The notes beneath the pieces were generated by a model. It searched no databases, was not told the DNA's origin, and was given only the letters and a program-made list of their open reading frames with translations. DNA of 64,000 nt from Gracilariopsis chorda. Lineage: Eukaryota > Rhodophyta > Florideophyceae > Gracilariales > Gracilariaceae. The first letter of the stretch is position 1, and each line of letters starts with the position of its first letter. The position numbers and the translations under genes are program-made. The DNA is taken from NCBI GenBank assembly GCA_003194525.1, contig NBIV01000150.1, positions 1 to 64,000 on the forward strand. The letters run 5' to 3'. This document shows, in pieces, positions 25,698 through 59,764 of the stretch.

Positions 25698-26440
25698 CTA
25701 CACGGGGTGAGCAGGGATTCCGGTGGCCCCCTGGGGGGACCTAAGACGACGTCGGTTCACTGCAGCTGCTGTTGGTTGCAGGACCATCGTTTCCACGCGC
25801 AGGAGGATGGTGTGGTACTCCGTCCCTGGATTAGACCCGCGTACGCTGCTCGCGTACTCCGCAAGCCGCCGGAAAAAGAGCTTAGCAGCAGGACCCGTGC
25901 CTTCGTGTACGTGGAAACCGATAGGATTGAAGTTAATTCCGTTTTTTCGCGCCCAAAGCGTATTATTTCGTCCGTTTCTGGGCTTATGCTCGTCTCGCAG
26001 CCCCTGCGGCTTCCATTGACGCATACGTCAAGAAGAGGTCGTTTTGAGGGCTAACTAACGTAATATCGAGCCCCACTTGTCTTTCATAGAACCGTACATC
26101 GTCGATGAGAAGATACATACGCTGTTGTGGGACTTCGGGCAAATGTTGCTGCGATGGTAAGGTCCATTCTCTGGTGACATGTAGGCAAAGTGGAGATTGT
26201 TTCAGGGCGGCAAAAAGCACATCCGGCAATGCATTGTGGCGGCGGGTGGCCCCTAAGCCGACCGTGCAAACCATAACGTGATAGCCATGTTCTTCAAAAG
26301 GTCGAACCATGGCGTAGTTTACCGCAGCGCAGAGGGGGCAAGTAGTTGAGCCGCTGAACAATTTCTCGCCCAGGCGCAGGTCAATCATCGTCTTAAAAAT
26401 CTCCGGCGGTGGTGATGGGTTTCGTGTCGGATGGATAAAG
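25698..26440 (-). pseudogene. REL endonuclease C-terminal domain of the LINE
   Basis: After a frameshift near 26,440 the RT frame passes into a zinc-knuckle motif (CPLC, then H and C in EEHGYHVMVCT), RRHNALPDVL, and a block with LIDDVRF and GLDITLVSP. This matches the layout of restriction-like endonucleases in non-LTR elements, where the Asp residues cleave the DNA target. A second frameshift near 26,000 leads into the final block, INFNPIGFHVHEG to the end, typical of the same domain's tail. Confidence 0.65.
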
Positions 26441-36831: not shown

Positions 36832-37368
36832 TTGTCTGGCCACCCAGGCGGGACGAGGATGTATCAGACCTTAAATAGGTTCTTCTATTGGCCCCTCATG
36901 GCCAATGATATAGTGCAGACCGCACTGGAATGCGCTGCATGCGCTAAAATTCGTGTGAAACGAGCGCTGTACCAGGGGAAACTTAAGTTATTCCCTGCGG
37001 GAGGACCTTTGGAATTGGTCGCTATGGACATCCTAGGGGCTTTCCCGAAGTCCACCCATGGGCAATCCTTCATCTTGGTTATTACCGACAGGTTTTCCAA
37101 GATGACGCGTGCTATTCCTCTACAGTCCACCACGGCAACTGATGTTGCTATGGCGTTTCTGGTCCATTGGATATACTCCTATGGTCTGCCTTTATATCTG
37201 TTGCCTGACAATGGCCGAATTTGTCTCCAAGTTCTTTGAACATGTGTCTTCGGCCTTAGGTCTAAAACACCTCCTGGCCACCGCCTATTACCCGCAGACC
37301 AATGGACAAGCTGAGCGTTTTAATAGGACCTTGGCCTCTAGTGTGAGCCACTATGTGGCTGAGCACCA
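36832..37368 (+). pseudogene. Ty3/gypsy integrase, N-terminal part
   Basis: The zinc-binding HHCC domain (GHPGGTRMYQTL with CAACAKIR) is followed by the DDE core: VAMDILGAF (first Asp), LLPDNG (second Asp) and TNGQAERFNRTL (Glu). A frameshift lies near 37,208, directly after the second Asp. The gene ends abruptly at the left terminus of the inserted transposon; its C-terminal part is at 53,734. Confidence 0.8.
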
Positions 37369-37391
37369 CGTCGGTGTTCTCGGAATGCTAG
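37369..37391 (+). repeat. Left terminal inverted repeat
   Basis: Starts CGTCGGTGTTCTC and ends ATGCTAG, matching the reverse complement of 53711-53733 at 20 of 23 positions. A 45-bp hairpin (37603-37647; 21-bp arms with one mismatch) lies just inside. Confidence 0.85.
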
Positions 37392-37602
37392 ATAGAGGTG
37401 CTAGATTGCACGTTTCTTAGCCAAGAGCTCAAAAATACTACGAAAATATTATATTCTGCTAGTCTCTGGCGATTGCCAAGTAATAAGAAAATTTTTTGGA
37501 ATTCACACTTCCATATCTTACAGAGCCTTGCCTCACCTGCACTGTGCATCGCTAGTTTCAAGTTTGGAGCAAGTTCATTCTCCACTAGAAGCTAGATACA
37601 GA

Positions 37603-37647
37603 TCTCGAAATGGCACTGGCCGCGCAGCGGCCAGCGCCATTTCGAGA
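37603..37647. repeat. Subterminal GC-rich hairpin
   Basis: Arms TCTCGAAATGGC(A)CTGGCCGC and its complement flank a 3-base loop, with one mismatch in 21 pairs. Its place near the transposon end suggests a transposase-binding or structural role (inference). Confidence 0.8.
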
Positions 37648-37844
37648 ACCCAACCAAAACTAACATTTTTATTTCCATCTTTTGAATTTCAAACTTCATA
37701 CTGCCCTACTTTGACTTCTAACTCATCCTCAGGAACTCATCTGGGCAGCTCTCTCCGTTCTCACACACCCCACGCACCGCGCATCAGATTCCAATACCAC
37801 CCATTCCGTCGTCCTAATAGCCTCAACGAAACTCCTAAACATAA

Positions 37845-38531
37845 CTAGCCTTCTTCTCCCTCTTCCCTCTTTCTATTCCTCCTCTTCAACCGACTCTTAA
37901 CCTCCAATCCTTCTTCTTTCCTCTCCTCCAACCTCCTCTTCACGACTCCTCTACCTCCAGGAGTAACCGGAGACCCACTCCCGACAGCACCTTCCACCCC
38001 ACCTTCCCCTCCACCTCCATACATCTTGTTCCGCATATCCTCGACTAGATGCATGGCCCTGTCCAAAAGTAAAAGCCGCTTCTCCAACACCAAAATCCAT
38101 CCTTGCAACTCCTCATTCTCCTTCCACAGCCTCTCCAGCTTCTCTCCCACACACGCCACAACCCCATCGACGTGCTGCTCTGCCCACACCCCAGCCTCCC
38201 TCAACCTCCGGCGCAACTCAGCCGCAGCACCCATCGGCACTCCTTCCTCCGACGCACTCAGAACCATCCCTCCCAACTCCACGACAACCTCCTGAATACA
38301 CTCATCCAAACGCTACTTAAGCCCTCCCCCAGCGCTCCTCAATAGTTCCTTCACATCGCGGTAGAACCCATCCATTCGTCTCCCTCCACCTCCCCCTACC
38401 CCTCCTCCTCGACCACTCTCGCCCGCACACCCCTCCCCACCATCCCCTCCCATCATCATCTCAACCCCCAGCTCACTGACCGAAAATTGCAAATAGTAGT
38501 CATGGTGCGTGTGGATGTTTTCAAATGACAT
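37845..38531 (-). pseudogene. Coiled-coil protein of the transposon
   Basis: One frame from 38531 to 37845 (about 228 codons) interrupted once by TAG at 38313-38315. The N-terminal part is Gly-rich; the rest has heptad-like helices (ERLWKENEELQGW, EKRLLLLDRAMHL) and a basic tail (KSRLKRRNRK). No catalytic motif. It is likely an oligomerising, possibly nucleic-acid-binding protein; function unknown. Confidence 0.5.
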
Positions 38532-39163
38532 GAATCTTCAAAAGTCGTGAATGAATTTTCAAGATTCGATAATAAATGTCCCACCTCTTCACTTGAACCA
38601 ACTTCGTCACTGCTTAAATGCACAGCTTATCATCTTCTAATTTGCTCACCCCTTGTCCTTCCCAACACACAAAACAATATTTTGAACCTCTACACGATAA
38701 TGCCGTCACCCTCTTCACTCTTCTTCATACATCAAGCACGCCACAATGCATTCATGTATGAAAAGAACCAGTACTTTCTATATCAACAGAATGGACAATC
38801 GCGGTATTTGGTTATAACAACGGGATCCTTCACACCCATACAATCACCTTCAATTCTCATACATAATCCCATACTCAATTTTACATCCATTCGTGTTTCA
38901 TATGAGCTGCCCCTTCATTCTCCCCTCCAATACACCCATCCCAAGTTTCTTCTCATACTTGTAGACCTTTCTTTATGGAATATAACAAAGCGAAATCTTT
39001 GTAGACATCATCCCTTCATTATTACGCATCATTCGAATGAAGCCGCATAATAAGTAATCCCCATCGTAGTAAACCTCTCCCATTCACTATAAACATTCAC
39101 TATAAAGATCAAAATGCAATCATCAGATTTAACAAACGTATATCACTAGTTTACTTATCATTA
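38532..39163. other. No supported gene
   Basis: AT-rich sequence between minus-strand genes. A 167-codon plus-strand frame is present, but its composition and lack of motifs make it an unlikely gene. Confidence 0.5.
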
Positions 39164-41373
39164 TCAATCGCTTTCATCATCCTCACCTATCAGACCCTCT
39201 GCTCCTTTAGGAACCATTTCACCCTCATCGTCATCCTCCTTTTCATAATCTCCATTAGTGTTCATTTCCGCTGGTTTCAGTATATCCTCATCTTCCTCCT
39301 CATCCGACGGGTTCTCACCTTCAGCTTCTTGCATAAATGCATCTCTATCGTCAGCTTCATCTCCCCGCTCCTCTTCCCCTCCTCCCACCTGACATAAATC
39401 GCCACGGTCCTCTTCATCATTAAAAAAGGGAGGGCCGAAACCGCTTTGCCTATGCAACGCATCCGGGAGATTGTATCCCTCAGGTAAAAAGTACATATGG
39501 TATCGCATGCAATAGCCTTTCGCTATTGCATCATTGTACCCTGCCCCCGCATGAAATACATCCCCTCTTCCAATGAACACAGAAAACGGTAGAACTCTGA
39601 ACTTGCGAACCATCATAGAAGCCGAAAGCTCCTTCAACTTACCCCGTGTCATTGTTAGAGTATGTGACCGTTCACAAACCGAAATCATGAACGCATCCAG
39701 TCCCGATCCCATTGCAAAATACCCCGGGTTCACATTCCTCATCCTGTCATTCTCCGTCAAACCCCTGAAATCCGTGTATAGCACCTGCCTCGGACAATCC
39801 TTTCCAGTCCAAAGGATACGGCCACCCGTGTGAGGGGCATACATCGTTCCACCTTCAGACAACCCGAGAGCAGCTGCAATCTGACCGAGCCTTGCATCCA
39901 ACATGGCTCTCTTTCGAGCAAAAAACGCACCGTTTTCAAGCTCCTCAATTCTGTCCGCAATCCCTCGTTTGGTTGTGATGAAACGCCCCACCACCTTGAT
40001 ACCATTCTTAACATCCTTTACCCCTCCTCCATTGATGATCATATTCCAGAAAACACGATTCGCTTCGTTCGTGAGATCCGGTTGAGAAACAAAGTCGCGT
40101 TCGAAGAAGCCCATCAGTTCTCCTATCACATCTTCTACATTTGCAGTCACCTCTTCGAAGCCTCACTCGCCATGCCTTCATCTGTCCCGAAATTCTCCAG
40201 CACACAAAACCCTCTCTCCGACAGCTCCACTCTCTTCTTCGCAAAGTAAACACAAGCCAAGTCCTCTCTCTCAAAAGTGGCCATCCATAACGCTTCCTCC
40301 TCACTTGATGCCGTTCCTGATCACGGCATCTTCACGCCCAGCACTGCAAGTGTCGTAGTACCCATCTCTTTGTGTATGTTGCGCGACGCACGCCAGTACA
40401 CAGCGTGATGAACCATTCGGAAGTCATCAGGTGATAGGCACTCCGCCCGATGGTGCTTCCTCAGATTTATCCTCTGCATCCATGGATGGGAATGCTTCAC
40501 TGCATTTCCGCTTTCAGGCCCCTCACTCGGCAACGAGTATACCAGGTCCACCCAAGACATGTCCGCTCCCATAGCCAGCTCTCCTGGCGTACTTAAGCCA
40601 GCTGGAAGCTTGTCAGGATTCTTATCGTCAAAGATGCCTGCGGTTTGCTGCTCCTCTGCCTCGTCTTACTCATCTTCCACAAAGTCCTCCTGAGCTTCAT
40701 CCTCGCTTTACTTGAGCACAATGATCTCCTGTGCTGTCAACCACCTCTTCAAATCTCTCCTTTCCATACTACGCAGCACCTCAACCACCTCCTGCAAGAT
40801 ACCAAAGCCAGGTCGCTTCACACCAGGTGCAGTCGGCTTACGATTCGATCGTTTCTGCCACTTCACCGGTGGCTCAAAATCAACTGACTCTTCATATTCA
40901 TCTACGTCCAGGACCTCCACTTTACGCTTCTTTGAGATTCGCTTACTTCTTCGACGCTCCTGGTCAGCGTTTAGAGTCTCCTGAGCAGCTTCCTCATTCA
41001 GAACAAGCAACTCGATCACGTCCACATCGACCGCAGAGGGAGCAGCAGCAGAAGCATCCTGTCCCTGCATTCCCTACAAAGCGCTGGACAACGTCTTATG
41101 AAGCTCTTTCACCTTATTACTCACTCTGGACTCCAGTGAACTGCGTTTCTTTTTCGTATACCACTTCCACAGACGATATATGATATACTCTGACACAGTC
41201 TGGTCAGAATCGCCGATGGTAACCGTGGTATTCATCAATTCCTGTACATTCTTTTTCTCCTTCATGGAACTCCCCAGCTCACTGCAAATGTCATACGTTC
41301 TAGAAGCACAGTCGAAGAAGTACTTTCGGAAATCCTCAAATGGTCCCATCTTCACAGTGGCCGCCGACCTCAC
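39164..41373 (-). pseudogene. Putative double-stranded beta-helix (2OG-Fe oxygenase-like) protein
   Basis: A minus-strand reading of about 735 codons with TAG (41071-41073), two TAA (near 40705 and 40668), TGA (40321-40323) and a frameshift near 40,155. The last, uninterrupted 328 codons contain QVLYTDF and, about 90 residues later, GRGDVFHAGAGY followed by RYHMYF. This resembles the HxD...H...R core of 2-oxoglutarate/Fe(II) dioxygenases. Here the first metal ligand His is Tyr (TAC, one C-to-T step from CAC). The N-terminal half has a basic nuclear-signal-like stretch (RRRSKRISKKRK); the C-terminus is very acidic. Family assignment is by motif only. Confidence 0.5.
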
Positions 41374-41412
41374 TCGAACATGCGCCTGTAGACATTGGAT
41401 AGTAAAACAAAA

Positions 41413-43089
41413 CTAATCCCCTGACATTCCAAGCAGAATATCACTAGACACATGAGTGATTCCAATTTGAGGCGTCTCCTTCCACACCACATCGAGGAAC
41501 TCTAACAGACCGGGATTACGCGCAAACTTCAGAGCAAGAGCAGAATGGCGATTGAAATGACGTATCTTCCCTTCTTTCTCCTTCGTCTTACTGCTCCACA
41601 ACACCCCCGTGATTTGGCTTGGTTTAAGAGTCGACAAATCATACCCATTCTGCTCTACGCCATTACGAATAAACGAAACAGTAGTGTGAATCTTATCTGC
41701 GAAGGACATCACCAGAACATTGGAGCTCAAATCATTCGAAGTCTTCCCCAGCCACAACACCTCATTCAATGTCATTCTCCGGCCGTCGTTCCGTTCCCAA
41801 AACGTGACGTTCAAACCAGCAGTAATCCGTGCCCATTTCGCACCATCATGCTCGAGGTCCAGTAGAACACTCACTCGATGGAAGCCATCCACCAAAACCA
41901 CAGGAACAATCAAACGCCCACTCGCATCAATAGCGTCACGAACCGGCACACCCTCCAACAGGGCCACCGCAGTGGACCCAAGAGAAGGGAGCCATCCGAA
42001 GTTCCTCAGTTTCTTCAAAGTATCTCGAAGATGTTTTTCATTCTTCGAACGAACCATGTTCTTCGGAAATCGAATGTTGTGGATATCGATTACGCATTTG
42101 TGCTGGTCATAATCACCTCGATTGATTTCTAAGGTACCCAAACTGTTACCCAGCTCTTCCGAAAGAACAGCATCACCGTCATCATATAAAACCCTCTCCT
42201 CCGGACCAAGATGGTTTCTGGAGAGTACATGCACCTCTTTGACGTCATCATCGGAGCTTGCTCCGACTTCAGGGCCTCCTCGGTTTCCAGAGCCGCCCGC
42301 GAGAGCACCTGATGTTCCTCCACCGCTCTGACTGGTTTTCACCGGAGCCTCTGCACCGCTCTCAAGGCTCTTCACCGGCGCTTTGGTCACCGAAATGCTT
42401 GATGGTGTACCAGCAACAGCGGGAAGGTGCTTGACTTGTCTTGCAGTGGTCCTGGAAGCTGTACTTCTGTGGAAAGTCTTCACATTTGCTCATGACTGCG
42501 GTGGAACCGACTCATTCCCCTCTCCGCCCTGATTTGTGACACTCATCATCGCAGTGTCCCATGCATATAAACCCGCTGAAACCATCTCCTTGAAAGTTGC
42601 GGGCGGTTCCTCGAGACCTCCGAAAACATAAGGGTACTTCTCATCTTGGTGTGACGAAATATTTGTCTTAAAGATAACCACCAAGTCCTCTCCAGGTCTC
42701 TGCGTAGAGGACAGGGTATAGTTGCGTAGTGAACGACAGAATCTCGTCCCCGGCCCCCCAGCAACCCCCACACCGCGCAATTTCGCCTCTCTTACCTTCA
42801 CCTTCGCATCACTACTCCCAACTCGTACGAACATATTGACCTCCGCATCGCCCTTAAGCACCTGACCCGTATTGCCCCCAATTGATGGCTCAGGGTGGCT
42901 GGCAGTTCGGGTGGCGCCCCGGCTCTTCGCTTTGCCTCGCGTGGTCGGCATGTCGATAGCACGTCTCTTTGGCGAAACAGGCTTCCTCGGAATCCATTTC
43001 TGTGATGGCGCGTTTATCTTATTCCCAGTGGAATCTATGGCTGAGTACTTCAAAGGTCGCGCTTGCGTTTTCTTGGCACCCACTGACAA
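41413..43089 (-). pseudogene. ParB-like nuclease-domain protein
   Basis: One frame of about 560 codons with a single TGA at 42490-42492. The C-terminal 356 codons contain DIHNIRFPKNMVRSKNEKHL, LVDGFHRVSVLLDL and WERNDGRRMTLNEVLWLGK. This matches the ParB N-terminal fold, where the GxHR-like box (here DGFHR) binds nucleotide. The N-terminal 200 codons are basic and Ser/Thr-rich (RKPVSPKRRAID). No ATG occurs at the 5' end of the frame; the first in-frame ATG is near 42,953. The upstream limit touches the duplicated repeat at 43,095. The next gene (41373) follows in the same frame only 40 bp downstream, so the two may once have formed one protein. Confidence 0.6.
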
Positions 43090-43094
43090 CGAAT

Positions 43095-44021
43095 GCTCCC
43101 CTGATCACGTATGCTTGGTTCCAAAGAGATGGACATAAGCACTATATATCGTTTTCATGACATCCATTGTCGTTAACGTAGCATCCCTGCAATTCCCCTC
43201 CTCATTACTTGCATTGGAAAAGAATTTGTTAAATTTCTGGTCAAGGTCCGTGGTCCGGGGTGTCGTGGTGCTCCATCGCGATTTCGATGGAGCGCCAGGA
43301 CGCGAAATTTTAATTAAAATTCATGCCTGGCGCTCCATCGCGATTACGATGGAGCGCCAGGACGCGAAATTTTAATTAAAATTCATGCCTGGCACTCCAT
43401 CGCGATTACGATGGAGCGCCAGAACGCGAAATTTTAATTAAAATTCATGCCTGGCGCTCCATCGTAATCACGATGGAGCACCATGACACCTCGGACCACG
43501 GAGCTCGACCTAAAACGAAGAGAAACATAATCCGTGGCAACCAAGTCAAAAGCGTCTTGCACATTCTTCGCAACCGCATTAGTTGCGTCGGTTTGGGCGA
43601 TTGAAAACTTCTATTGAACCCGAAGAAAAACTTTTGCTTGTTAAACAAAGCACCCGAGTGGTCGTCTCCAACAGGGTTACCCCTTTCTTTTGAAGCTCCC
43701 GTGATCACGCCTGCTTGGTTCCATAGAGATGGACGTAAGCACTATATATCGTTTTCAAGACGTTTCATGACATCCATTGTCGTCAACGTAGCACCCCTGA
43801 AATTCCCCTCCCAATTACTTGCATTGCAGAAAGAATTTGATAATTTTTTGGTCGAGGACCATGGTCCGAGGTGTCTTGATGCTCCATCGCGAACACAATG
43901 GAGCGCCAGGACGCGGAATTTTAATTAAAATTCATTCCTGGCGCTCCATCGTGTTCGCGATGCAGCACCATGACACCTCGGACCACGGTCCTCGACCCAA
44001 AACGAAGAGAAACATAATCCG
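43095..44021. repeat. Divergent intergenic region: duplicated block with 62-bp palindromic repeats
   Basis: A block at 43095-43534 recurs at 43695-44021 in direct orientation (offset 600 at its start). Each holds an array with period exactly 62 bp: unit starts 43270, 43332, 43394, 43456, and 43881, 43943. Every unit contains two palindromes, CGCTCCATCG/CGATGGAGCG and AATTTTAATTAAAATT. Each array is further enclosed by a larger inverted repeat (GTGGTCCGGGGTGTC... with ...GACACCTCGGACCAC). It sits between the minus-strand ParB-like gene and the plus-strand gene at 44043, so it is a promoter, origin or protein-binding region (inference). Confidence 0.9.
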
Positions 44022-44042
44022 AAGGAAACGGGTTCATTCAAG

Positions 44043-45044
44043 ATGCACGGACCCGGAGAAGAGCTTATTGATGCTTATCTTGCAGTTCTTGATGACTACG
44101 CAGCGACGAGGCAAAATGTGGATGAGCCCAGAAGTTTGAAGCACACTGAATTTGTGGAGTTCGCGGTACAAAGTCACAACGTTCATGACTCTGCCAAGAA
44201 AATGTTTCTCACTCTCATTGGACGGGATTACATCTCGTATTCTGACTCCGAGCTCCGTAACATGTCTCTCAGAGGCCCTCCACGTCAACTCTATCTTATG
44301 GCAAGAGTGGTGGACGTAAAGGACCGTGGAGAAGACAGGCTTGTAAGGGACTTTTGGAAGGTTTATTGTAAAAGGGAAGGGCTTAAAGGATTTCCCCGTA
44401 ACGTGTTGCTATCTGTCTTTTGCAGGTTCCGTGTACTGGGAGCACCCAAGAAATTTTCCGCTTTCCACACGGACCCTTGCACCGACTTTGAAATAGTCAT
44501 TGGGTTGTCTATGGTGCAACAGAATGCCGTGGATAAGAAAGGAAGTGGTAGGAAGAGGAAAAGGGGCATGGCAGCTAAGAAGTTCTCGAAAGTGAGTTTG
44601 TCGGACAGGACCCAGAGTCAGAGAGTCGGGTATGGTGTGCAGCTGGTGACCAGAGCTTGGGATTGTTTCGCCCAATTCCTCGGGTATCCCAAAGTTGAGG
44701 TTATGATCTTGCCTTACATTCGACTAGACAGTATCACTGAAGTCGTCACCGATATCGCACAACGCTCCATGGGCTTCCAACACAAAGATTGTTCCAAACA
44801 GTTTGTGGAGGAGAAGAACGTCACCACCGTAGAAGAAAACGTTACCAAATGGGCATGGAATCTGCCGGACTCAGTGGCTACAGCGCTTCGCCTTTGTGCC
44901 AAAGAATACCTTGGTGATCTTTCTAATGTGGTGGTACAAGAGAAACTGTTCGACATCTCTGCTCTAAGCAAATGGGGTGCCCTCAAAAGGTTCATCATCA
45001 CGAGAACGAGACTTTTCCCTCTGCGGTTTGAGAACTTCATTTAA
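44043..45044 (+). CDS. Transposon-encoded protein of unknown function
   Basis: 333 codons from an ATG 21 bp after the end of the palindromic repeat block; the only larger gene of the element without an internal break. It is predicted mostly helical with a basic loop (KKGSGRKRKRGMAAKK, about residues 165-180) that may be a nuclear signal. I recognise no domain. It is the first gene of the plus-strand block, followed by the methyltransferase-SET gene. Confidence 0.65.
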   Translation: MHGPGEELIDAYLAVLDDYAATRQNVDEPRSLKHTEFVEFAVQSHNVHDSAKKMFLTLIGRDYISYSDSELRNMSLRGPPRQLYLMARVVDVKDRGEDRLVRDFWKVYCKREGLKGFPRNVLLSVFCRFRVLGAPKKFSAFHTDPCTDFEIVIGLSMVQQNAVDKKGSGRKRKRGMAAKKFSKVSLSDRTQSQRVGYGVQLVTRAWDCFAQFLGYPKVEVMILPYIRLDSITEVVTDIAQRSMGFQHKDCSKQFVEEKNVTTVEENVTKWAWNLPDSVATALRLCAKEYLGDLSNVVVQEKLFDISALSKWGALKRFIITRTRLFPLRFENFI

Positions 45045-45095
45045 TCTCTTGTCAATACGGTTCAAGAGGCCATAAAGCCTCTGAAGCTCATTTAA

Positions 45096-45330
45096 TTGCA
45101 TGGAAGCAATGTCGAAGTACATCAAGCTGTGAAACCAGAGCCCGCAGAAGACGTTGATATCATTATGGAGCCGGTAGAAACTGGTACGGCTGGTGGTGGG
45201 AACGAATGTGATGAGCGTGTGGAAGGTGGTGATCAGGGTGAGTTGGAAGAAGTGGAAGAGATAGAGATGGTAGAGGATGCGGAAGTGGTACTGCAGAACG
45301 TGGTAATGCACCAAAGGCCACTGAAGGATT
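45096..45330 (+). pseudogene. Acidic N-terminal extension of the methyltransferase gene
   Basis: An open frame rich in Glu/Asp (EELEEVEEIEMVEDAE-like) just upstream of, but in another frame than, the methyltransferase core. Either it is the gene's real N-terminus separated by a frameshift near 45,300 or it is spurious. Confidence 0.35.
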
Positions 45331-47190
45331 GCAGACAACTGCTTTGTCGCAGAACTTATCGTATGATGTCGAAGGCACGGGGATTCGTGCACCACCGTAC
45401 CCTACGACTTTGCATGATGTGATAGCTTACAAGTATTGTGAGAAGGCGATGTCCCGCAAATTCCGTCTCCACAACTGCAAGTTCGAAAATCTCATCGAAG
45501 TTGATGACGACAAGTCTGGCGAAAGCGAGGTATCTATTGAAGGAAGGGTACAGTTCCTGCTTTCCGATCCGCCATATGGGACTCGTTCTGAGCGTCGTTT
45601 AGAGAACAGCGAACACGATATTCTGACAGAGAAGGGCATGAGCAGGTCAGCGACGAGGTCTTCAAAGCTTCTACGTCCTGGTGGACATATTATACAGTTC
45701 TGCTCATGGGATCAGGTACCGTTGTGGCGGGATTTGCTATGGAATTTTACCTACATGGATAACTCTGATACGAAGCGTTACTCCTTCGTAGTCAACGAAC
45801 AGCCCCTCCATTTCTTACGGCCTTTAGGTAATACGACGGGTAACGATGGAGAAGAAATTGCCGGTTGCACCAGACGACAGAATACGCTGTACATTATGTT
45901 CATTCTGGAGTTCCTTATGCACAACAGCACCGGATGGTCAACTATGAGAACTTCAATTATGTTGCTTCACGATACCCAGCGTATCATGCAATCATAGATC
46001 AGGTGCCGCCGATGTCAAATAGTGAGATGCTCATGTGGTCTATGAAAAACCCGGATGGGACGTATACGAGGAAGAGGGTGTGACCAGAACAGAAGTATAG
46101 GGCACTGTTGAAAGAGCTGATTTGCAGGTTCAGTCAGCCAGGAGACCTCGTGGTCGACATGTTTGCCGGAACGTTCTCGACAGCGATGGCGTGCATGGAA
46201 CTGCCCAAGCATGAGAAGTTTGTGGGGTGCGAACCGGACAAAGCTTGCTTTGAACACGCCAGGCATGCCGCTATTGTTCGCTTCGCTTCCATAATACGGG
46301 AAGGACACACGGATATTGAGAAGAGCCAGGAGCTTCGAAAGACGGCCCATTGGATTTCCTCTGCATTCCCAATGGGAAAAAGCAGGCACACCGTGTTATG
46401 GAGGGCTGTCGACGGATTTCCACCGTACCAAATTCTTCCCCCACACCTTGTCGACTTTCTCTCCACTTTGTGGCAAAGTGAAATTCTAGGGAACTTGGGA
46501 AGGAAGAAAGCTATGGATGGATGGCCGAGGGAGCTGCAGGGAAGAATGAATCTGGAGAACACGAAGTCTCTATTGGCAATGGAGGCTGTGCAATATGGGT
46601 TGCGAGTGGACAAGTCTACTATTCGTCACGAAAAGGCTGGTGTTGGAGTGTTTGCAACTCGTCGAATTGCTGCAGGCGAGGTAATGTGCTATTTCTACGG
46701 GATGTTGGTTTATCATGACCTTTCGAATCGGAAAGAAATGCACAAGACCTACGGGGAGCTCATGGATGTGACGAAGGATCGCTTCCGTAAGTATGCGGTG
46801 GAGATAGAAGTCTACGTTCAACAGTTCCAATCACTTCTGCATCGAAAGCAGCTGACGAATTGGTATGGAAAACAAGCAAACCCCATTTTATGGGTGGTTC
46901 CTTCCCCTTTTTGTATTGCGGGATATATCAACGATCCAAAGTACGTGGAAGGGGATAAACAGTTAGATGCCATGGTGGATGGCCTCATGAAAAAAAGGGA
47001 GGCTAATGTGCGAATGAAACGGACACTGGGAGTGGGACGAACACCAGGGGGAATAACGGACTACAAACTTATTAAGATGGAGGCCCCAGCCGAGATAGAG
47101 CAAGGATAGGAACTCTTTGCCAGATACGGTGATGTTTATGACTGGCAAACCCATTTAAATGTGGAGGATGGAACGATAGTCATTGATTAG
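45329..47190 (+). pseudogene. Beta-class DNA amino-methyltransferase fused to SET domain
   Basis: The first part has LLSDPPYG (DPPY, 45566-45577), catalytic motif IV of N6-adenine/N4-cytosine methyltransferases. After a frameshift near 45,860 come PEQKYRALL and DLVVDMFAGTFST (FAGT, 46162-46173), the SAM-binding motif. Motif IV before motif I is the beta-class order. Then follows a SET domain: GVGVFATRRIAAGEVMCYFYG, INDPKY and ANVRM, and finally ELFARYGDVYDW. TGA at 46081 and TAG at 47107 interrupt the frame, the latter within the GEEL-type motif of SET. The protein would methylate DNA and a lysine (likely histone); nuclear action is inferred. Confidence 0.75.
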
Positions 47191-47487
47191 TTTGTTGTTC
47201 TAAACCTTTGTCCACAGCTCGGCCAAAGGGCGACGTTTATTATTTCAACGGATGTGTAGTCCTAACTTAGGAGAACATCAATTTCCAGTAAGGATAGAAG
47301 ATACTAAGCGATATAGATATGATACAGAAACGTCCATTTTCGGTACCACGGAGGATTGTATTCTCAAGATTTCACAAAAAACAAAGATTTTTGTGCGCAT
47401 TGGGTGGCGAGATTCTCCAGGACCACACAAGGCATGCACCATCCCAGAGCGTCACTAGCCACTTGCGCAAGAGGTTTGACTCCAAGA
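47191..47487. other. Intergenic, no gene seen
   Basis: AT-rich spacer between the methyltransferase-SET gene and the next plus-strand gene; it probably holds the promoter of the latter, but no clear element is visible. Confidence 0.4.
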
Positions 47488-49919
47488 ATGGCGCCGAAGA
47501 GAAAGAAGCGAGGCCCGGCAAGGGGTGGTGCGGCGAGTGCGCCTAAGACGCGGCGAAAGGCTATTGAGGAGCGAACCGAGAGTGGAACGAAAGTGAAATC
47601 ATGTGTTCCCAGGAGCGGATTATCGGGGAGGAGGTCAGGAGAAGGTGCTTCGAAGGGAGGGGGAAGAGGTGGGGCAAAGAATGTCGGATCCGAACGCACG
47701 AAGAGTGAGAGCAAGACGAGTGAGCGCACGACGAGTGAGAATTTGAAGGCTGATGCCCATGCGCATTTAGCACGGAGGAGAGATTCGGTTCGGGACAGCG
47801 ATGTATGCCTGGGTCTGGTGGTGGGGTGGAGGGTAAGAAAGGTTCGGTTGCTAGGAGAAGGGAAGAGGTACCAGATCAGGGAGGGTTGAAAGCAAATGTG
47901 CGGGTCGAAGACCAAAATAAAGATGAAGAAATGCCGGAAAGGAAACAAATGGAAGATGTAATTTTGCTGAAGAGAGGTTGGGCCCCAAGGTGAAATCAAT
48001 ATTGAGGAGAGGTATATGTCCCTTTGGTAGAGAGTGATGGGGACAAGGAGGATCACATTGTGAAGGGGAGATGGACGAGAGAGAGAATAAAGGAAGGAGT
48101 GGGACCCCGCTCTGATTGAAAGGAAACGCGAGAATGGAAAGAAGTGGTCAGAGCGACGGATGGAATACAGGAAGCATCGAAAAGCGGAGAACGTACGAGC
48201 ACCCCGGTACAAGCGCGAGAGGTGCAAATGGCTCAAGACTTGGAAAGTGATAAAGGAAGCATAACGACGTGGAATCCGGAAGGAATGCGAGAGAGGAAAC
48301 GAAGTGTTCATCCGTCGCCAAGTGAGCCTGCTGAGAAGCGATAGCTGCCTGTCAATATTTTGGGAGATGCAGGGAATGAAGACATCGGTGTGATATCTAG
48401 ATCTTCGTTAGTTGAGAGGGTCAATATGTTGAAGGCAGAACTCGGGCAGATCAAAGGGGACCACTGCAGCCTAAAGATGTCGCTGAAGCTGACGCAAGAC
48501 GAACTGAAGAGGATGAGAGAGGAGATGAGCGAGAAGCATTTGCTGATATATAGCTTATGGGAAGGGATGAAGGTGAGCCGAGGGGAGAGAAAGGGATCCG
48601 AAGGTGAAAAGAAATTGCGAGGGCGTAGGAAGTATGTGGTTGATGTGCACGAGATTTTTTATGGGTTTGCCAGGGTAGTATATGATAGGTTGATGGACTA
48701 CGCGAAGCTGGAGGTATCGGAGCTTTGTTTTACTTCGGAGGGTGTGGAAAGGAACTGGAAGAATCGATGCAAAGTATTGGGGAAGGGAAAGGAGGGGAGT
48801 GTGTTTGTTGTGGGAGGAAAGGAGATTGTACCTCGATGTCCGTTTGAGACTGCGTCTGAGATGAGGTCATACACGCCTTCGTCGTGAGGAGGAAGTAATG
48901 AACTATTGAAGTACTTGGTTGGCGTTGAAATTGAGGGGGAGAGATGGGAGTCGATTCGTGAAGCGGGTAGGAAGGATCAATGCGTGCGGGAGGTTGTTGC
49001 GGACTGGTGTTTGATGCAACGTATGAACCAGAAGTTGGGTGATGTAATTGGGGTTCGGAAGCGTGTGGCACGGGACAAAATATTATCGTTGCTTGGATAT
49101 GACTTGATAGCCAGACGTGTGAGACCGCGAGAGGGGACGGAGCTAGACATTGAGTTGAAGAAGAAGTTAGAGGAAGTAAAGACGAAGTTCATGGGGGATG
49201 GGGAGGCGAGGAGTGGTAGGCTATGTTCTTGGACGATGAAAACAATCGAAGATCTTACGTATTCTGGATTTCAGGTTGCTGGGCGGCTGAGAGAGTTTAG
49301 TGAAGGGAACATGTACTTCAAGAACGGTGCTGCAGTGGAAGTGTTGGAAGACTTCATGGGATATGAGCTGGGAACGGAAAGGGAGGGAAAGATGGAGTAC
49401 ATTGATGGGACAGTGATGCATTTGGCTCGTTTGGATGCGTGTATCGGATGTGTTTTGACGGCAATGGACACAGATGTGGGGCGTGGAGGAAGACGGCAGT
49501 TGTTATTTTCTATGTTGTACGGTGAGTATCTTCCGCTCGCGCTAGAGAATGTACTTGTTGTTGCGTGGGAGAGGTTGAGAGAGCTACATCATGAAGAATT
49601 GGAGAATGAAGGTTGCGATGAGGGTGACCCGCGTTGTATAGCTCGCAATAGGGATTGGGAAGTGACGGTAGCGCTGTGGATACTTTCAAAGCGGAGGATA
49701 TACTTGGCCGTGAAGGATGAATACTTTTTGGAACATATGACGAAACGGCTGGGAGGGGTGCTGGACTGTTATGTTGCTGCGTGTCGGCCAGAAGATGTGT
49801 GGATGAAGAGGTTGGTGAAAGAGAGTCGAGATGTTGGGAGAGGTGAGGCGACGGATCATGTCGAGGCACAGTGGGAGGAAGGTCTGGGAGGTTATGAAGA
49901 ACAAGTTGAAGAAGAATAG
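47488..49919 (+). pseudogene. Large transposon protein of unknown function
   Basis: A reading of about 810 codons. The ATG at 47488 starts a Lys/Arg/Gly-rich N-terminus (MAPKRKKRGPARGG). A frameshift near 47,790 follows, then one frame to 49919 broken by TGA at 47991, 48003 and about 48117, TAG near 48342, and TGA near 48885. The middle has a coiled coil (48420-48550). The last 337 codons are an uninterrupted, well-composed helical domain with conserved-looking Trp, Cys and Tyr residues but no recognised motif. It ends 22 bp from the convergent transposase gene. Confidence 0.5.
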
Positions 49920-49941
49920 TGTTACTGGTGGAACGGGTGGT

Positions 49942-52900
49942 TTACTGATTTGTTGTAGATTGTGGGGCGTAAGGCTTTGAAGAGGTGTCACGATAGAATC
50001 GGTTGATGTCGAAACGATAGAAGCGCCAGTGAAGACGAGCAGTGAATGGCGGGGCGGGGTAGTTTTCTCGAATGAGGTGGACTGCACCTAGAATGGAGGT
50101 GGAAGGAATGAGGCCGTTACAAGGAGATACGTCGTCGTCGGTGGAAGGTTTGGATATGGGAACTGGATCGGTGGTGTGGTCCCGCTGGTCATCGGTTGAC
50201 CACCGAAGGCAGACGCAGTTGGGGGTGATATCGACATTGTCGCGAGGTGGTACGAGTTCAAGGAATTGTACGAAAGCGAATTCCTTTGTAATGGGGGTGG
50301 AAGAGCTTGAAGAGGGGGAAGGTAGTTTGAAGCGAACTAGGGCAATGAACTTGGAGACCCATACAGTGGGTGTGGATAGAGAGGAGGAGTTGGTTCCTGC
50401 GACAATAATATGGGAGAACTTTGGTGATGTGGAAGGTCCGAATGATGGAACGGCGAAGATGCGATGGAGGAGAGGGACGGAGGGTTCTTGGAGGACGAGT
50501 TCGTTTCGTTCTTGGTTGTAATTGTGTATTGTTGGGATGTAACCGCCGACGACGGATGCGGAGTTGACGAAGGTGAGAAGAGTTTGACGGAGCTTGTTGG
50601 GTGAGGGATTTAGCTTGAGATATTTGATGGAAAGGGAGACGAAGGAATGAAGTGTGGTGTGACCTAGTTGTGAGATGATTGAGAGCGTGTCGGAGGAGAA
50701 GAGTCCTTGAAGATATTTTGGACTTGCGTTGGGGGTGGATGCAAGGTACTTTGCGGCTGTGAAGATGTCGTAGAAGGAAAGATGTTTTCCGTCACGTACG
50801 AAGGAGGGTTTGCGTGGTTGCGGTTGAGTTTGAGGTCGAGCATGGGAGGATAGGGAAGGGTCTGCGGAAAGTGGATTCCAGTCTTTGAAGAGATTGGAGC
50901 GGTCTATAGCACGGATGGTTTCTGTATGGGCGGTGGCTCTTCGCTTGGAAGTTTTGGAGTAATGTGATTTGAAGAGGACGTGGGCGTGGTCGAAGATGCC
51001 TGCGTCGTTGAAGTGGAGACCCCCGTATCGGCGTATGTTCTCGACGATGTGGTCGAGGAGATGGAACTTGAGAGTGCCGAGGTGGGAGGAGTGATAGGGT
51101 CCGAGAATGGATGCGGCTGTGACTTTGAAGGATCTGATGTGTTTTTCGAGAGATAGGAGGGAGGTGTCTGTCCATTCGGGGGAGGAGTTGTATCGCATAG
51201 CGGAGAGAAGGAGGTCTGTGTACTTGGTGAAGACAGAAGTGATGGGCGAAGAGTCTGTTTCTTTGCAGCATCTATCGAAGAAGGCGCTGATGAAGGGGAA
51301 GACCATGTCGAGGGTGCGGTAATCCTTTGCTTCCAGCATTACTCGTAAGCCTTCTGTGGTGAAGAAGCCGTTAAAGGCTTGGGAGTTGTCGGTTGTGGAG
51401 AAGTCGATGTGGAGGCCGGGTGCAGGGGAGTCCTTTTCGATGGCGGCGAGGATGGAGTTGGAGTGTTTGAGGATGGAGGTGCGGATGGAATTGAAGGAAC
51501 GTTTGGTGTTGTTGGGGCCGACTGCGGTGAAGAGGGATTCGGAGCGGAGTCGTTCGATGGCGGTGGCTTTGATGGGCTTTGAGACGCCGAGGTGGAAGTT
51601 GTGAAGGAATTCGAAGGCAAAGATATTGTAAGAGGACAGAAGGAGAGTGATGTTGAAAATGGCATAAGATTCGAAGAGAGGGGGATACTTTGCGAGGGAG
51701 AGGGACTGGAGGGCTCTGGTTGCTTGTACCTTTTTGGTGCGACGACTTTTGGCTTGCGGGCGAGCTGGGCTTCGTCGGACTGGCGAAGGAGAGCGGCTTG
51801 TTCTCTGCGTTTGTTTCCAGTCTGGGATTGTGTGCGGAAGTGGATGGGGTTTGTGTTGAGAGAGAGGTGTTCGCCGGGGACGGTACATCTGGGGCAGGGG
51901 TGCTGTGGTCGTGTTCCGTGCGAAATGGCGAGGATGTCCTTTGCCTTTGGGATGTCTGCGCAGTAGCTGGAGAGGATGGAGTGGCAGTGACGGAGTACAC
52001 CGTGGGCGTCACGGAATGAGAAACCGAGGAGGGCGGAAGAGAGGAGTGGGTTGAGGATTGCAGAGATGGCGCGCTGAATGAGGTCAATTCTTGTTTCGCG
52101 TGGGATGTTGGATGACGAATGTGGGATGAAGTGTGGGTGGTCGGGGGAGGCAGAGGGAGAGAAGGAGGTTGGGAGGTATCCGAGGAGGGTGAGGTTTTCG
52201 GAGATACACTTTCAGCGGAATGCGTCTTAGAAGTTGAGAAGGGTGATGTGAAGGGGATATGAGTTGATGGAGGAGCTCTTGAGTGAGGTGGCGAACTTAT
52301 CGGAGTATAACTGGACGAGACCGACGAAAGATTCCATACCGGTTGTTTCGGGGATGTGCCAGACGATGTCATTGATGTGGCACCGCATGATGGCTTGTTT
52401 GAAGGCAGGAACGACTTTGTTTCCAAAGGCTGCGGCCATAGGATGGGCGAAGGCGGGGGTGCAAGAGGAGGATAGGGAAGATGGGAGACGGGTTGGAAGA
52501 AGGTGTTGTTGAAGTGTGCGAGAGCGAGTTGTTGCTTCAGGACGTCTATGGCGCGTTTTTGGAAGAGGGTTGCGGAGAAGGAGTTGTGCTCGTCGGTGAG
52601 TGTGAGAGGGAGGAAGCCGGTGGAGCTGATGCATTCTTTGAGGAGGTGTTCTTGGAGTGCGAGGCACTGCTTTGCGGAGGAGATGGATTTCTGGAAGGAT
52701 GACTTGGAGACGTCTGGGTGGCTGAGAAGGGAGATGAGTTCGTCGGCTTTGCGTGTGCTGAAGCAGGAAACCATGGTGGAGATGCAGAGGGCGAGTTGAT
52801 CGAGATGGGGGTTGTTGAGGAGAGGGGAGGGGGATTGGGACGAGGTATGGGGAGGTGGTTTTGAGGAGGAGACTGAACAGAGGGCGTGACTTGCCATGTG

Positions 52901-53392
52901 GTGTGCGTCTTGTGTTTGGAGAGAAAGGAAGGCCTGTTGGATGTGGTATGGTTCATCTTCGGAGAGGGGGACGTTGTCGGAAGGGCGGTGTGAGGGTGTG
53001 GGAGGAGGAATTGTGGAGAGGTTTGGAACGGATTTTCGTCGCTTGGTCCTTGGAGGGAACTGGACGGGAGCGTTGGCGGAGGAGGAAGGGCGTTTGTCGG
53101 TGGTGAGTCGATGAGGGCACCTGCGTTGGTGACTCTGGAGAGAGAACACGGTGCGGCCATAGAAAGTGCAACGGGGATGGCAGCAGGGTATCATGGCGGG
53201 GGAAGGAGAACGGAGAACGGGATGCTTGGAAACGGAGAAGGGAGGGTAGTGGCGGAGTAGGATATCGGGGATCGTAATATTACGGCGCATGTAGATGAGG
53301 TGGTGCACGTGATGCAGAGCGTCTTTTCGTAGGGCATGGGGTAGAGCATGCGATGCAGGGAGCAGGTCGGGCAACGGGTGATAGAAAGCCAA
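49942..53392 (-). pseudogene. KDZ/Plavaka-like transposase
   Basis: Coding passes through three frames. Frame 1 (53392 to about 52,490): CCHPRC...HQRRCPH zinc finger and a long Ser/Pro linker. Frame 2 (about 52,500-51,650): GLVQLYSDKFATS, FRDAHGVLRHCHSILSSYC, and HPCPRCTVP. Frame 3 (about 51,650-49,942): AFEFLHNFHLGVSK, HLLDHIVENIRRYGG and HAHVLFKSHYSKTSKRR, continuing 650 codons to TAG. The YSDK segment, the PCPRC motif, the D/H-LGvsK block and the late H-E-like helix follow the layout of Plavaka/KDZ transposases. In frame 2 an extra 27-bp stretch near 52,200-52,230 adds two stops. Frame changes lack GT-AG borders, so they look like mutations, not introns. Confidence 0.7.
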
Positions 53393-53710
53393 AGCTATTT
53401 GGTTATGTAAGCGCTATGTATCTATTCTATCTATTCTATCTATTCTATTTTGCTATTTGAAGGGGCACTCGCTCAGGACCAGTAAGATTTGGATTCCACG
53501 TGCACCAGAGAGGGTAGGTATTAGTGAAGTCTGGCGCTATTTTTACCTCCAAAGAAACTGGGAAATGTCTAGTATACTGCTAGTCTTTTGTCCCAAGCAA
53601 ACTAGCTCTGTGCTATGTATGGAATTATTTTGAGAAATTTGATTCATTCAAAATTGGGTTTCAAGAGTCGTTATTCGTTCATTTTAATTCTTTGCCTTTT
53701 GAATGCCAAA
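53393..53710. other. Right subterminal region of the transposon
   Basis: Non-coding; includes a TCTAT microsatellite (about 53417-53450). No gene seen. Likely carries transposase promoter and end-recognition sequence (inference). Confidence 0.5.
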
Positions 53711-53733
53711 CTAGCATAAAGAGAACACCGACG
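53711..53733 (-). repeat. Right terminal inverted repeat
   Basis: Starts CTAGCAT and ends GAGAACACCGACG; the reverse complement matches 37369-37391 at 20 of 23 positions. It is immediately followed by CA and the resumed integrase reading frame. Confidence 0.85.
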
Positions 53734-54733
53734 CAGTTGGACTGGGACGATTACGTCCAACCTTTGGTCTATGCCTACAATAATCAAGTCCATCGGTCCA
53801 CGCGTACGACACCTTTTGACCTTTCCTTGGTTTGGACGCCCCCACCCTACGTGGTCGACCTACAGGATACAGGCATCCCCCAAGACGTTTCTGGCGAAAT
53901 GACGCCAGCTCAGGCCAAAAGGTATTCATTCGCGTATGCGAATCGATTCTATCCTGAAGGCCACCCAGACCCATTTATACAAAGCGCAGAAGCGCTACAA
54001 AGCGGAATTTGATAAGGCCACCTGGTTTATGCCACAACTTTCTCCAGGGGACTATGTCCATTTGGACCGGCCACCCAAGGAAAATCATGAGGCCGAGGAC
54101 ACTGCGTCCAAGCTGGTACCTCGTTCCATCGGAACATATAGGGTAATCAAGTCCACCCGCCATACGCTTACAATAGACGGAGAGGGTCTTCAGGATATTG
54201 TTTTGACGGACCGCGTGTCCATTGCGCCCCGACAATATTTGGGACCAATGCAACACCCTACCGGAAGTGCGACTTTACCGCACATCTTTGAGCGCACATT
54301 TCCATGCTTCATGACGCCGCCAGCACTGCCGGGCACACGCGCCATTTCCGCCGACCCTCTTGGTCCACAGGTCGATAAAGCGGGTCACCAGGGTGCCGTT
54401 GCCGACGACCTCCGCGGCCGCAAAATCGTCTCATCCGACGACGGCTATGGAGCCTTCGAGGGCATGTATTTACCAGAGGAGGAGCGTCGCAAATATGTCG
54501 TAGACCGCATCGTCCCCGCTGACCTTGACGGAAAAGGTGAAGTGCTTTACAAAGTCAGCTGGTATGAATATGGCTCGGAGGACGACCAGTGGATACAGCC
54601 TGGCATTATCTCGGCGAATTTTATTAATCGCTACTGGTCCATAATGGGCTACACGGAGCGCGATCTCCGAAAAGGGCGTATCCCTGACCACAGGTTCACT
54701 GCCAAGGCGCCTCAAAACGCCACTAGCCAATAG
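53734..54733 (+). pseudogene. Ty3/gypsy integrase C-terminus with chromodomain
   Basis: Continues the integrase cut at 37,368 with LDWDDYVQPLVYAYN and VHRSTRTTPFDL, typical of the integrase end. A frameshift near 53,960 follows, then the GPY/F-like region (LSPGDYVHLDR). A chromodomain ends it: YVVDRIVPADLDGKG, YKVSWYEYGSEDDQW and INRYW (about residues 180-235 of the last frame). Chromodomains guide chromovirus integration to heterochromatin (family knowledge). It ends with TAG at 54731-54733. Confidence 0.8.
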
Positions 54734-58322: not shown

Positions 58323-59764
58323 TCAGGGCTCTTTGTTTGCCGCAGCAAGCTCCCGGTCTTCAATGACTTTCTGCTTTCCCAATTTGGTTACTATGCGTAG
58401 ATACACTGCTTTGACAACAGAATCAGACGTCAATCGAGACCCACCGGTTGTATCAATTCGAACATGACCGTCTTCCTGGATTACAGCGTCTCGGAGTAAG
58501 GTACGATGCATATTCGCAAACCGTTCAAGAAGCGCTTCCACTGTAACAGAACTGACCTTATTTCTGTTTGTTTCGACCAGGTATTTCTGTAGTGGAGCAA
58601 CGTTCGGTGCCAACAGCTCCATATCCCACACTCCCGTTTTATGGGAACCGGAGCGTATGTTAGTCGCAGTATAAGAGCTTGAAGATGCATTGCTGATGCA
58701 CTGCAAAACATCGAAAGCATTCAGCTTCTGCTTCTGCCGGGCAGCTTTGTACAACTCGTGTTGCAGTTGGGACTTATAGGAGCTAAACACAGATGTGTCG
58801 AGTGGTTGCGTAGTGTGTGACGTGTGCACCGGAAGAGCAATAACAACCACGTGGTTATCTTTGAACAGTTTCAGAGTCTTATGTTGTATATGACCACCGC
58901 GCCCATCGAGCAAAAGAAGCAGTCGCTGTCCATTCTTTCGGAGGTTCTCCGTTTCCTCCACGAAGCCTTTAACCCAGTCGTAAACAATATCCATATCCAC
59001 GCAAGGCGGATTCCCTTGAAACAAGTAACAGGGAGATAGAACCGAGTGCAGAATTTGGATTTCGCCTTGCACTTTGCGGTAGTGCGCCAATTTTCCGGGG
59101 AAGACTATACCACGTTTATAAGCCACACCACACCCTGATACAATCGACATCACGGTAACTCGATCAAGACAGCCTTTTGTGGTGAAAGCTCGCTGAACCA
59201 GTCGCGCACCAATGGATCCAATTCCCTTGCGTAGACTTCTGCCTTTCATATTTTCGAAGGACGGACCGGATTGGTCCGTATTGAACATAAATCGTGGGTC
59301 AGTGATATGGTATCTCTGGATGGCAGCTTTAATTCTGGAAATGTGTTCCGTCAAGTTTTCTGCTGTAATTGCTTGAACACGCTTGTTTTCCCTCATATGC
59401 ACATGTTGAACCTGCAGTTCGTTGCGAGTCGGAAAGGCAGAACCCAGTTGTTTGATGGGCGATTATCAAGAAACGCAATCTTGTTCTGTCCCTCGCTTGG
59501 CAAAGTCGAGACAAAATCTTGGACTAGATCTCTAATTCCCTGTCTAGTCAATGATGTATTGTTATTGGCATAGTATAGGACAGCTTTCCCAACTATTTCT
59601 TCCTTGTCGGCGTTTGGTGCAGGCGGTCGTCCTTTGTTGGGAATGTTAAGATGAATATCTTTCGATTGTTGAGTTTGAGATTCAGGAAAGGTCCTTTTCG
59701 AACTTTTATATGCACGTCGCAGCACTGTAACGCTGATTGTATGTTTTGAGCGAGTGCCTCCCAT
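58323..59764 (-). pseudogene. pogo/Jerky-like (Tc1/mariner superfamily) transposase
   Basis: The N-terminal frame (59764-59393) has a CENP-B/Tc5-like DNA-binding region (KGRPPAPNADKEEIVG, NTSLTRQGIRDL). A one-base change near 59,435 shifts to the catalytic frame (59402-58323, 359 codons). The DDE triad is present: FNTDQSGPSF (first Asp), LLLLDGRGGHIQ (second) and HTSHTTQPLDTSVF (third). The layout matches DDE_1-type transposases of the pogo group. The frame is otherwise intact, so this insertion is comparatively young. Confidence 0.8.

Follow-up and report, generated by a model that had tools for sequence, protein, structure and literature searches.

The stretch analysed here (the window) comprises the first 64,000 nucleotides of contig NBIV01000150.1 of the red alga Gracilariopsis chorda, whose genome (91.3 Mb) was searched for related copies. 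At positions 37369-53733, the window contains a real transposon with defined borders, 16,365 bp in length, which by its sequence is a decayed copy of a Plavaka-type cut-and-paste DNA transposon. In addition to a transposase, its young relatives encode five accessory proteins, the core of which is formed by two divergent fusion genes, one joining a DNA methyltransferase (MTase) to a SET domain, the other a ParB-like part to a dioxygenase-like part. The reading favoured here, given a probability of roughly 45%, is that these proteins may mark the element itself, guided by the ParB-like part and addressed by palindromes, and may thereby counteract silencing. Transposons with single chromatin enzymes are known, but the benefit of such enzymes to the element is not. 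One young, many-copy family unites the parts of what may be a whole loop (recogniser, writer, editor, and address sequence), so that self-marking becomes directly testable.

The borders of the element are the following, both duplications resulting from flank comparison.
37367..37368, no strand: target-site duplication CA, left
37369..37391, plus strand: left terminal inverted repeat (TIR), 23 bp
53711..53733, minus strand: right TIR, 23 bp
53734..53735, no strand: target-site duplication CA, right

The 23-bp TIRs, which an earlier note on this DNA had placed at the two borders, are indeed present, and match at 20 of 23 positions. Searching the genome with a TIR pattern (up to two mismatches) yielded 268 matches (133 + 135), against 0 + 0 for the reversed pattern used as a control. 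An exact 2-bp duplication (CA, TA, TT, AT, CT, TG, or TC) flanks 12 of the 16 TIR pairs read, for about 1/16 expected by chance; none was seen at C50, C134, C286, and one C32 pair. The terminal CGTCGG is found at both ends in 13 of these 16 pairs (29/32 ends); C1, C3, and one C32 pair each deviate by one base at a single end. When the element and one CA are removed in silico, a reading frame stays open across all 400 bases of the joined flanks (200 bases per flank). This frame is integrase-like by eye; its left piece alone gave no Pfam match. The flanks belong to a Ty3/gypsy-type retrotransposon with RNase H, integrase zinc-binding, and weak chromo domains, its integrase core match falling just below the Pfam cut-off, and the coding frame of this host retrotransposon (window 34000-55000) is split by the Plavaka element. 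No second copy of the insertion site was found within the window.

Related copies were sorted into subfamily A (that of the window, old), subfamily B (its young sister), subfamily C (more divergent), and the OrsD-type loci treated below. Identity to the window's transposase is ~80-91% in A, ~77-79% in B, and ~44-48% in C, with some copies in between; the best 65 of 251 transposase candidates were scored, and all copy, group, and cluster counts are lower bounds. The transposase gene of the window is broken.
49951..53410, minus strand: transposase gene of Plavaka type, with 2 stops and matches spread over three frames

The pieces of the window transposase gave no Pfam match. They are 78% identical, over 600 amino acids (aa), to the transposase of an intact sister. 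The intact B transposase matches PF18759 (Plavaka, E 2.7e-21), the only family reported in a Pfam scan at E<=1. Zisupton, from the KDZ superfamily, is known for an 8-bp target duplication; KDZ membership was rejected here, Plavaka being the sole Pfam report and the duplication being of 2 bp. Of the label 'KDZ/Plavaka-like' given in the earlier note, the second half stands, by way of the relative's PF18759 match. The first half falls: there is no KDZ match, the duplication is of 2 bp, and Kojima 2025 (PMC12730594, in its available part) takes Plavaka out of KDZ and assigns it to the CACTA-related CMCT group. Plavaka transposons have TIRs and target duplications of 2 or 3 bp. The transposase domain, TIRs, and 2-bp duplication are shared with the PlavakaA and PlavakaB transposons of that source. 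However, according to the same part of it, PlavakaA ends in TGT..ACA and PlavakaB in CATCA..TGATG, and the 5'-CGTCGG found here fits neither; nor were MTase-SET or ParB-dioxygenase fusions, membrane and coiled-coil genes, or palindrome arrays met there.

Pairwise identity among nine B copies ranges from 99.38 to 99.75% (36 comparisons), so these copies are young. Young relatives carry six genes, for a small coiled-coil protein, a membrane protein, the ParB-like+dioxygenase-like fusion, the MTase+SET fusion, a large coiled-coil protein, and the transposase ('coiled-coil' being a label given by eye from the sequence, without a coiled-coil predictor). Each B gene is intact in some copy. Open reading frames (ORFs) were found for the transposase (1160 aa; C31, C53, C386), MTase-SET (1065 aa; C53, C332, C745), the ParB-like fusion (1417 aa; C550), the large coiled-coil protein (821 aa; C550, C31, C53, C48), the small coiled-coil protein (276 aa), and the membrane protein (398 aa, with ~5 predicted spans; C14). 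All six are open together in none of the copies read: C53 has no open ParB-like fusion, C550 has frame breaks in the MTase-SET and membrane genes, and C31 in these two and in the ParB-like fusion. The protein classes listed in the earlier note were recovered, but its seven genes become six in the intact relatives; the ParB-like protein and the oxygenase-like double-stranded beta-helix (DSBH) protein, which it had counted as two genes, are actually the ends of one gene, as the 1417-aa ORF of the sister copy shows. In the window copy, stops and frame changes affect the transposase, MTase-SET, ParB-DSBH, and large coiled-coil genes. Numerous shorter copies are internal deletions with good TIRs and duplications (e.g., 6.7-7.2 kb); some B deletions seemingly recur in many copies, which are therefore apparently mobilised in trans. 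Internally deleted B derivatives of 6.7-9.9 kb at L015-L020 (C187, C32, C14, C34) are mutually 99.6-99.8% identical.

Matches of five query proteins, merged with a joining distance of 7 kb, form at least 201 clusters, at least 110 of which have more than one query. In 28 of these 110, the only matches come from the two ends (ParB and DSBH) of a single gene, so that at least 82 clusters contain more than one distinct gene. The gene order DSBH(-) ParB(-) MTase-SET(+) coiled-coil(+) transposase(-) is found in 82/82 clusters listed, one of which (C37) has an additional inverted transposase match. The remaining 91 of the 201 clusters, deleted copies included, show a single query match each among the matches listed. 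Eleven copies are bounded by TIRs: four (C1, C50, C114, and the window's) contain DSBH, ParB, MTase, and transposase, six a subset, and one, the 4.7-kb C77, none of the genes. No cargo match lies outside the TIRs within 15 kb for 11/11 of them, among the matches listed. The view of one transposon with a chromatin and DNA-modification cargo is borne out, since the same TIRs bracket the cargo in TIR-bounded copies and the gene order is constant. Transposase and cargo as separate insertions, the outcome that the earlier note had set against this view, were not observed in these 11 copies.

The ratio of non-synonymous to synonymous divergence (dN/dS) was compared between subfamilies A and B for six gene parts, and amounts to 0.170 for the transposase, 0.187 for ParB, 0.125 for DSBH, 0.126 for the MTase N-terminal part, 0.159 for the MTase-SET C-terminal part, and 0.153 for the coiled-coil protein. 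At a synonymous divergence (dS) of 0.7-1.5 these ratios are rough, yet far below 1. They indicate purifying selection on the cargo and the transposase, and the similar constraint on both argues against the cargo genes being mere passengers.

The first of the two divergent fusion genes is the putative writer.
44028..47187, plus strand: N6/N4 DNA methyltransferase and SET fusion gene, broken by 4 stops and two frame changes, DPPY kept (intact relative of 1065 aa)

The DNA methyltransferase-SET fusion announced in the earlier note is supported by an intact 1065-aa ORF, with matches of the MTase part to PF01555 (E 3.6e-18, intact B relative) and of the SET part to PF00856 (E 8.9e-5 for the B protein, 7.2e-6 for that of C637). 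The MTase also matches the phage family phrog_67 (1.5e-22), and its solved relatives by sequence are adenine methyltransferases, for example, DpnA and CcrM. In beta-class MTases such as these, motif IV, (D/S)PP(Y/F), comes ahead of motif I; the relatives of the window gene have the same order, with DPPY preceding FAGT. Motif IV reads DPPY in A and B. Among the C and OrsD-type copies read it is replaced by DAPY, DAPT, or DALT, and MTase activity is doubtful in the two copies of OrsD type, whose variant is DAPT or DALT. In SET domains, NHS is the usual motif; NDP stands at this position here, and the domain is whole in B. According to the available part of PMC8885841, DPPY is the motif of bacterial N6-adenine MTases (N6A-MTases) and SPPY that of most N4-cytosine MTases (N4C-MTases); by this rule, the target is probably N6-adenine. 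MTase-SET is a possible double writer, a candidate for both DNA-base amino methylation, probably of N6-adenine, and histone-lysine methylation. A single database relative was found (P0006, 94% identical). Transposon-borne SET genes are also carried by HarbingerS and MuDR elements of Phytophthora (cited in the available part of Kojima 2025, PMC12730594), but the SET domain is here fused to a DNA methyltransferase. The N4CMT of bdelloid rotifers likewise joins a bacterial-type amino-methyltransferase to a chromatin domain in a eukaryote; as described in the available part of PMC8885841, it belongs to the host and combines SPPY with a chromodomain reader, whereas the present one is transposon-borne, with DPPY and a SET writer.

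The second fusion gene combines the putative recogniser and editor.
39167..43023, minus strand: ParB-like and dioxygenase-like fusion gene, broken by 6 stops and a frame change (intact relative of 1417 aa)
39410..40138, minus strand: dioxygenase-like (DSBH) part, with HxD changed to YxD
41416..42489, minus strand: ParB-like part, with the DGxHR motif

Both assignments are drawn from motifs: DGxHR, a box of the GxxR type as in ParB/sulfiredoxin-like proteins, and HxD..H..R, as is typical of 2-oxoglutarate-Fe(II) enzymes. In 6/6 full-length fusion proteins, D513-G-x-H-R is invariant, as are H1223-x-D1225, H1298, and R1314. The presumed first iron-ligand His is replaced by Tyr in the window copy, and the Asp by Gly in a C58 copy. 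Homology searches gave further full-length fusions (P0007-P0011) and a shorter match (P0012). The fusion protein had no match in Pfam (E<=1), NCBIfam (E<=1), PHROGs (E<=0.1), or PADLOC (E<=0.01). Profile and structure searches, the check proposed in the earlier note, succeeded for Plavaka, PF01555, and SET, but Pfam, PDB-sequence, and fold searches gave nothing firm for the ParB and DSBH parts. The dioxygenase-like part has no PDB sequence match, and its predicted structure (mean pLDDT 39.5) is too poor to judge the fold. The TET/JBP Pfam models did not match the fusion at E up to 10, in a search whose filters drop weak matches. Fungal transposons bearing TET/JBP genes (Kyakuja, Zisupton, PlavakaB, and others, in the available part of PMC12730594) resemble this system by a dioxygenase-like gene present on more than one backbone, but the dioxygenase-like domain is here fused to a ParB-like part and lacks a TET/JBP Pfam match.

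The presence of both enzymes raises the unlikely alternative of a sequential hypermodification, in which the MTase would methylate the element's DNA and the dioxygenase would oxidise the methyl group to a new base, marking self, protecting DNA, or timing transposition. The two genes lie back to back, are kept together, and are both under purifying selection. Phage methyltransferase-dioxygenase pairs perform such a sequential modification, and are discussed in the available part of Kojima 2025 (PMC12730594). Nevertheless, the element has no other recognised modifying enzyme, the MTase motif is degenerate in the two OrsD-type copies read, and the dioxygenase fold is putative.

The address sequence would be provided by palindromes, located in the window as follows.
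43265..43484, no strand: palindromic repeats of ~34 bp each, arrayed with a start spacing of 62 bp, in the divergent promoter
37601..37649, no strand: subterminal palindrome with 23-bp arms, a 3-bp spacer, and 2 mismatches

Long palindromes lie between the two enzyme genes in every type read, with a different sequence per subfamily. In B they measure 86-94 bp, two being placed 235-236 bp apart in 7 clusters (e.g., C550) and one being present in the others listed (e.g., C31). Subfamily C (C190) has three palindromes of at least 28 bp with a spacing of 75 bp, the OrsD type (C58, C637) 4 strict palindromes with repeats at 211-255 bp, and A (the window) two strict palindromes inside the repeat array of 62-bp period. 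Composition-shuffled elements contained zero palindromes in 27/30 shuffles, and one in 3/30. Outside the divergent promoter, the strict scan found one palindrome in the window, the subterminal one, and none in five other elements, whose ends are partly missing or undefined; in three B copies, a 27-bp counterpart of the subterminal palindrome is set back from the end by 243-244 bp.

On both strands, the genome has 102 matches to the B core (51 + 51, a palindrome counting on both strands), 48 to A, and 120 to C, with 0 for each control. All of the listed B sites (50/50) adjoin B-type genes, and 27/29 A groups and 21/24 C groups have an element gene at a distance of no more than 11 kb. The spacing is 62 bp in 15/19 A intervals and 73-75 bp in 35/37 C intervals. 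Of 57 B-type marker clusters (C114 counted twice), 44, among them many deleted derivatives, have a listed B site and 13 have none, some of the latter being cut by contig ends and one being the TIR-bounded C14:325957-332971. From these counts and the site positions, the subfamilies each bear a distinct array at an equivalent position, which is element-specific but not strictly required for moving. Separately, 58- and 84-bp promoter stretches (window 43104-43236 and 43704-43846) recur ~600 bp onward with 91% and 83% identity.

As in the bacterial ParB-parS system, a DGxHR ParB-type motif is found beside a palindrome array in the same element, although the palindromes are here longer and subfamily-specific, and the putative ParB is fused to an oxygenase-like domain. 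As a ParB-type protein is encoded beside a subfamily-specific array in the same element, self-recognition is the most economical reading. Anatomy, mobility, and selection are what the sequence shows; the enzyme activities, palindrome binding, self-targeting, and anti-silencing purpose are inferred. Within the promoter common to the two genes, the putative ParB-like part would recognise the array of its own element, in the manner of bacterial ParB with parS, and would bring the fused dioxygenase, a possible methyl-mark editor, to the element. The MTase-SET protein may reach the element through the dioxygenase fusion, or in competition with it. Element DNA and chromatin would then be re-marked, so that the element could stay expressed and jump despite host silencing. 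An escape from host silencing has been proposed for transposon TET/JBP genes (Kojima 2025, PMC12730594, in its available part). The self-regulating write/erase action suggested in the earlier note is likewise inferred, and the decayed window copy would hardly be capable of it.

The location of the palindromes in the shared promoter, where an operator is expected, would also suit self-taming, in which MTase-SET would hold the copy number down by placing silent chromatin on excess copies, and the ParB-like protein would repress its own divergent promoter via the palindromes. The available part of PMC8885841 proposes a transposon-silencing loop of bdelloid N4C-MTase and SETDB1, but 268 TIR matches and young copies that are 99.4-99.8% identical speak against tight limits, and repeated palindromes of up to 86-94 bp exceed the needs of an ordinary operator, making this improbable. 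The parS-like array architecture could, alternatively, reflect element mechanics, the ParB-like protein and the array serving for partition or synapsis by keeping ends or sister copies together, with the other domains as degenerate remnants. The motif IV aromatic is indeed lost in the two OrsD-type MTases read, but the presumed dioxygenase catalytic residues are invariant in 6/6 full-length proteins, DPPY is kept in A and B, and SET is whole in B; this explanation is rated as quite unlikely.

The same divergent pair occurs in a second gene neighbourhood. At C58 and C637, MTase-SET is 44% and ParB-DSBH 30-33% identical to the window's parts. The divergent layout is retained, but the neighbours are an OrsD-domain protein (on C58, PF12013 at 5.5e-8) and fragments of DEAD helicase. 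These two loci have ~13.6 kb in common, with 94.8-96.6% identity, and as copies are dispersed, OrsD-type loci are probably mobile. The best 46 of 112 OrsD-protein candidates were scored, the cluster counts being lower bounds. Among the matches listed, at least 37 OrsD clusters were found, 21 with a cassette match nearby and 16 without. The layout DSBH(-) ParB(-) MTase(+) OrsD(+) occurs in 20 of the 37 listed; 3 of those 20 (C58, C378, C637) have both cassette genes, and the other 17 show one. The 21st cluster, C232, probably reflects a Plavaka derivative with an unrelated OrsD match in its vicinity; this one excepted, the OrsD clusters listed have no Plavaka transposase, coiled-coil, or membrane-gene match. 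The OrsD/DEAD-helicase loci, comprising L023:6255-9272 (C58) and the 36 other OrsD clusters, may constitute a distinct type of mobile element.

The occurrence of one divergent pair in two neighbourhoods suggests that it is maintained as a unit. A bolder and rather doubtful extension of the self-marking reading is that of a portable, self-addressed epigenetic cassette, in which a divergent writer and a ParB-guided editor, placed around a parS-like array that co-diverges with the proteins, would travel together between unrelated backbones (Plavaka and OrsD/helicase) and give the element that carries them a base and chromatin mark specific to it, which might be an oxidised N-methyl base novel for eukaryotes. 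Plavaka elements are already known, as are transposons that carry dioxygenase or SET genes. The literature search recognised no described transposon with an MTase-SET or ParB-dioxygenase fusion, an earlier mention by Iyer and colleagues (2014, 2016) being still possible; this gene set, the OrsD-adjacent pair, and the palindrome arrays were likewise not found by it.

The three remaining genes of the element are the following.
37878..38375, minus strand: small coiled-coil protein gene, truncated, 1 stop (tblastn with an intact relative, 69% identity)
38472..38531, minus strand: multi-pass membrane-protein gene, 20-codon remnant (comparison with open copies)
47443..49841, plus strand: large coiled-coil protein gene, broken by 5 stops and one frame change

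The membrane gene was found in three subfamilies, with up to 70-73% identity in A-like and 29-36% in C-like copies. It has the same orientation as ParB-DSBH in the 22 A/B-like clusters having both, and the opposite one in 11 C-like clusters.

The rest of the window is transposon-dense. Positions 1-23000 consist of tandem ~6.9-kb units, in three to four copies, with Helitron_like_N and PIF1-helicase ORFs; most pairwise comparisons shown are 87-100% identical, giving the appearance of head-to-tail Helitrons. Two other ORFs, for a reverse transcriptase and a DDE_1 endonuclease, lie at 26385-27545 and 58323-59462.

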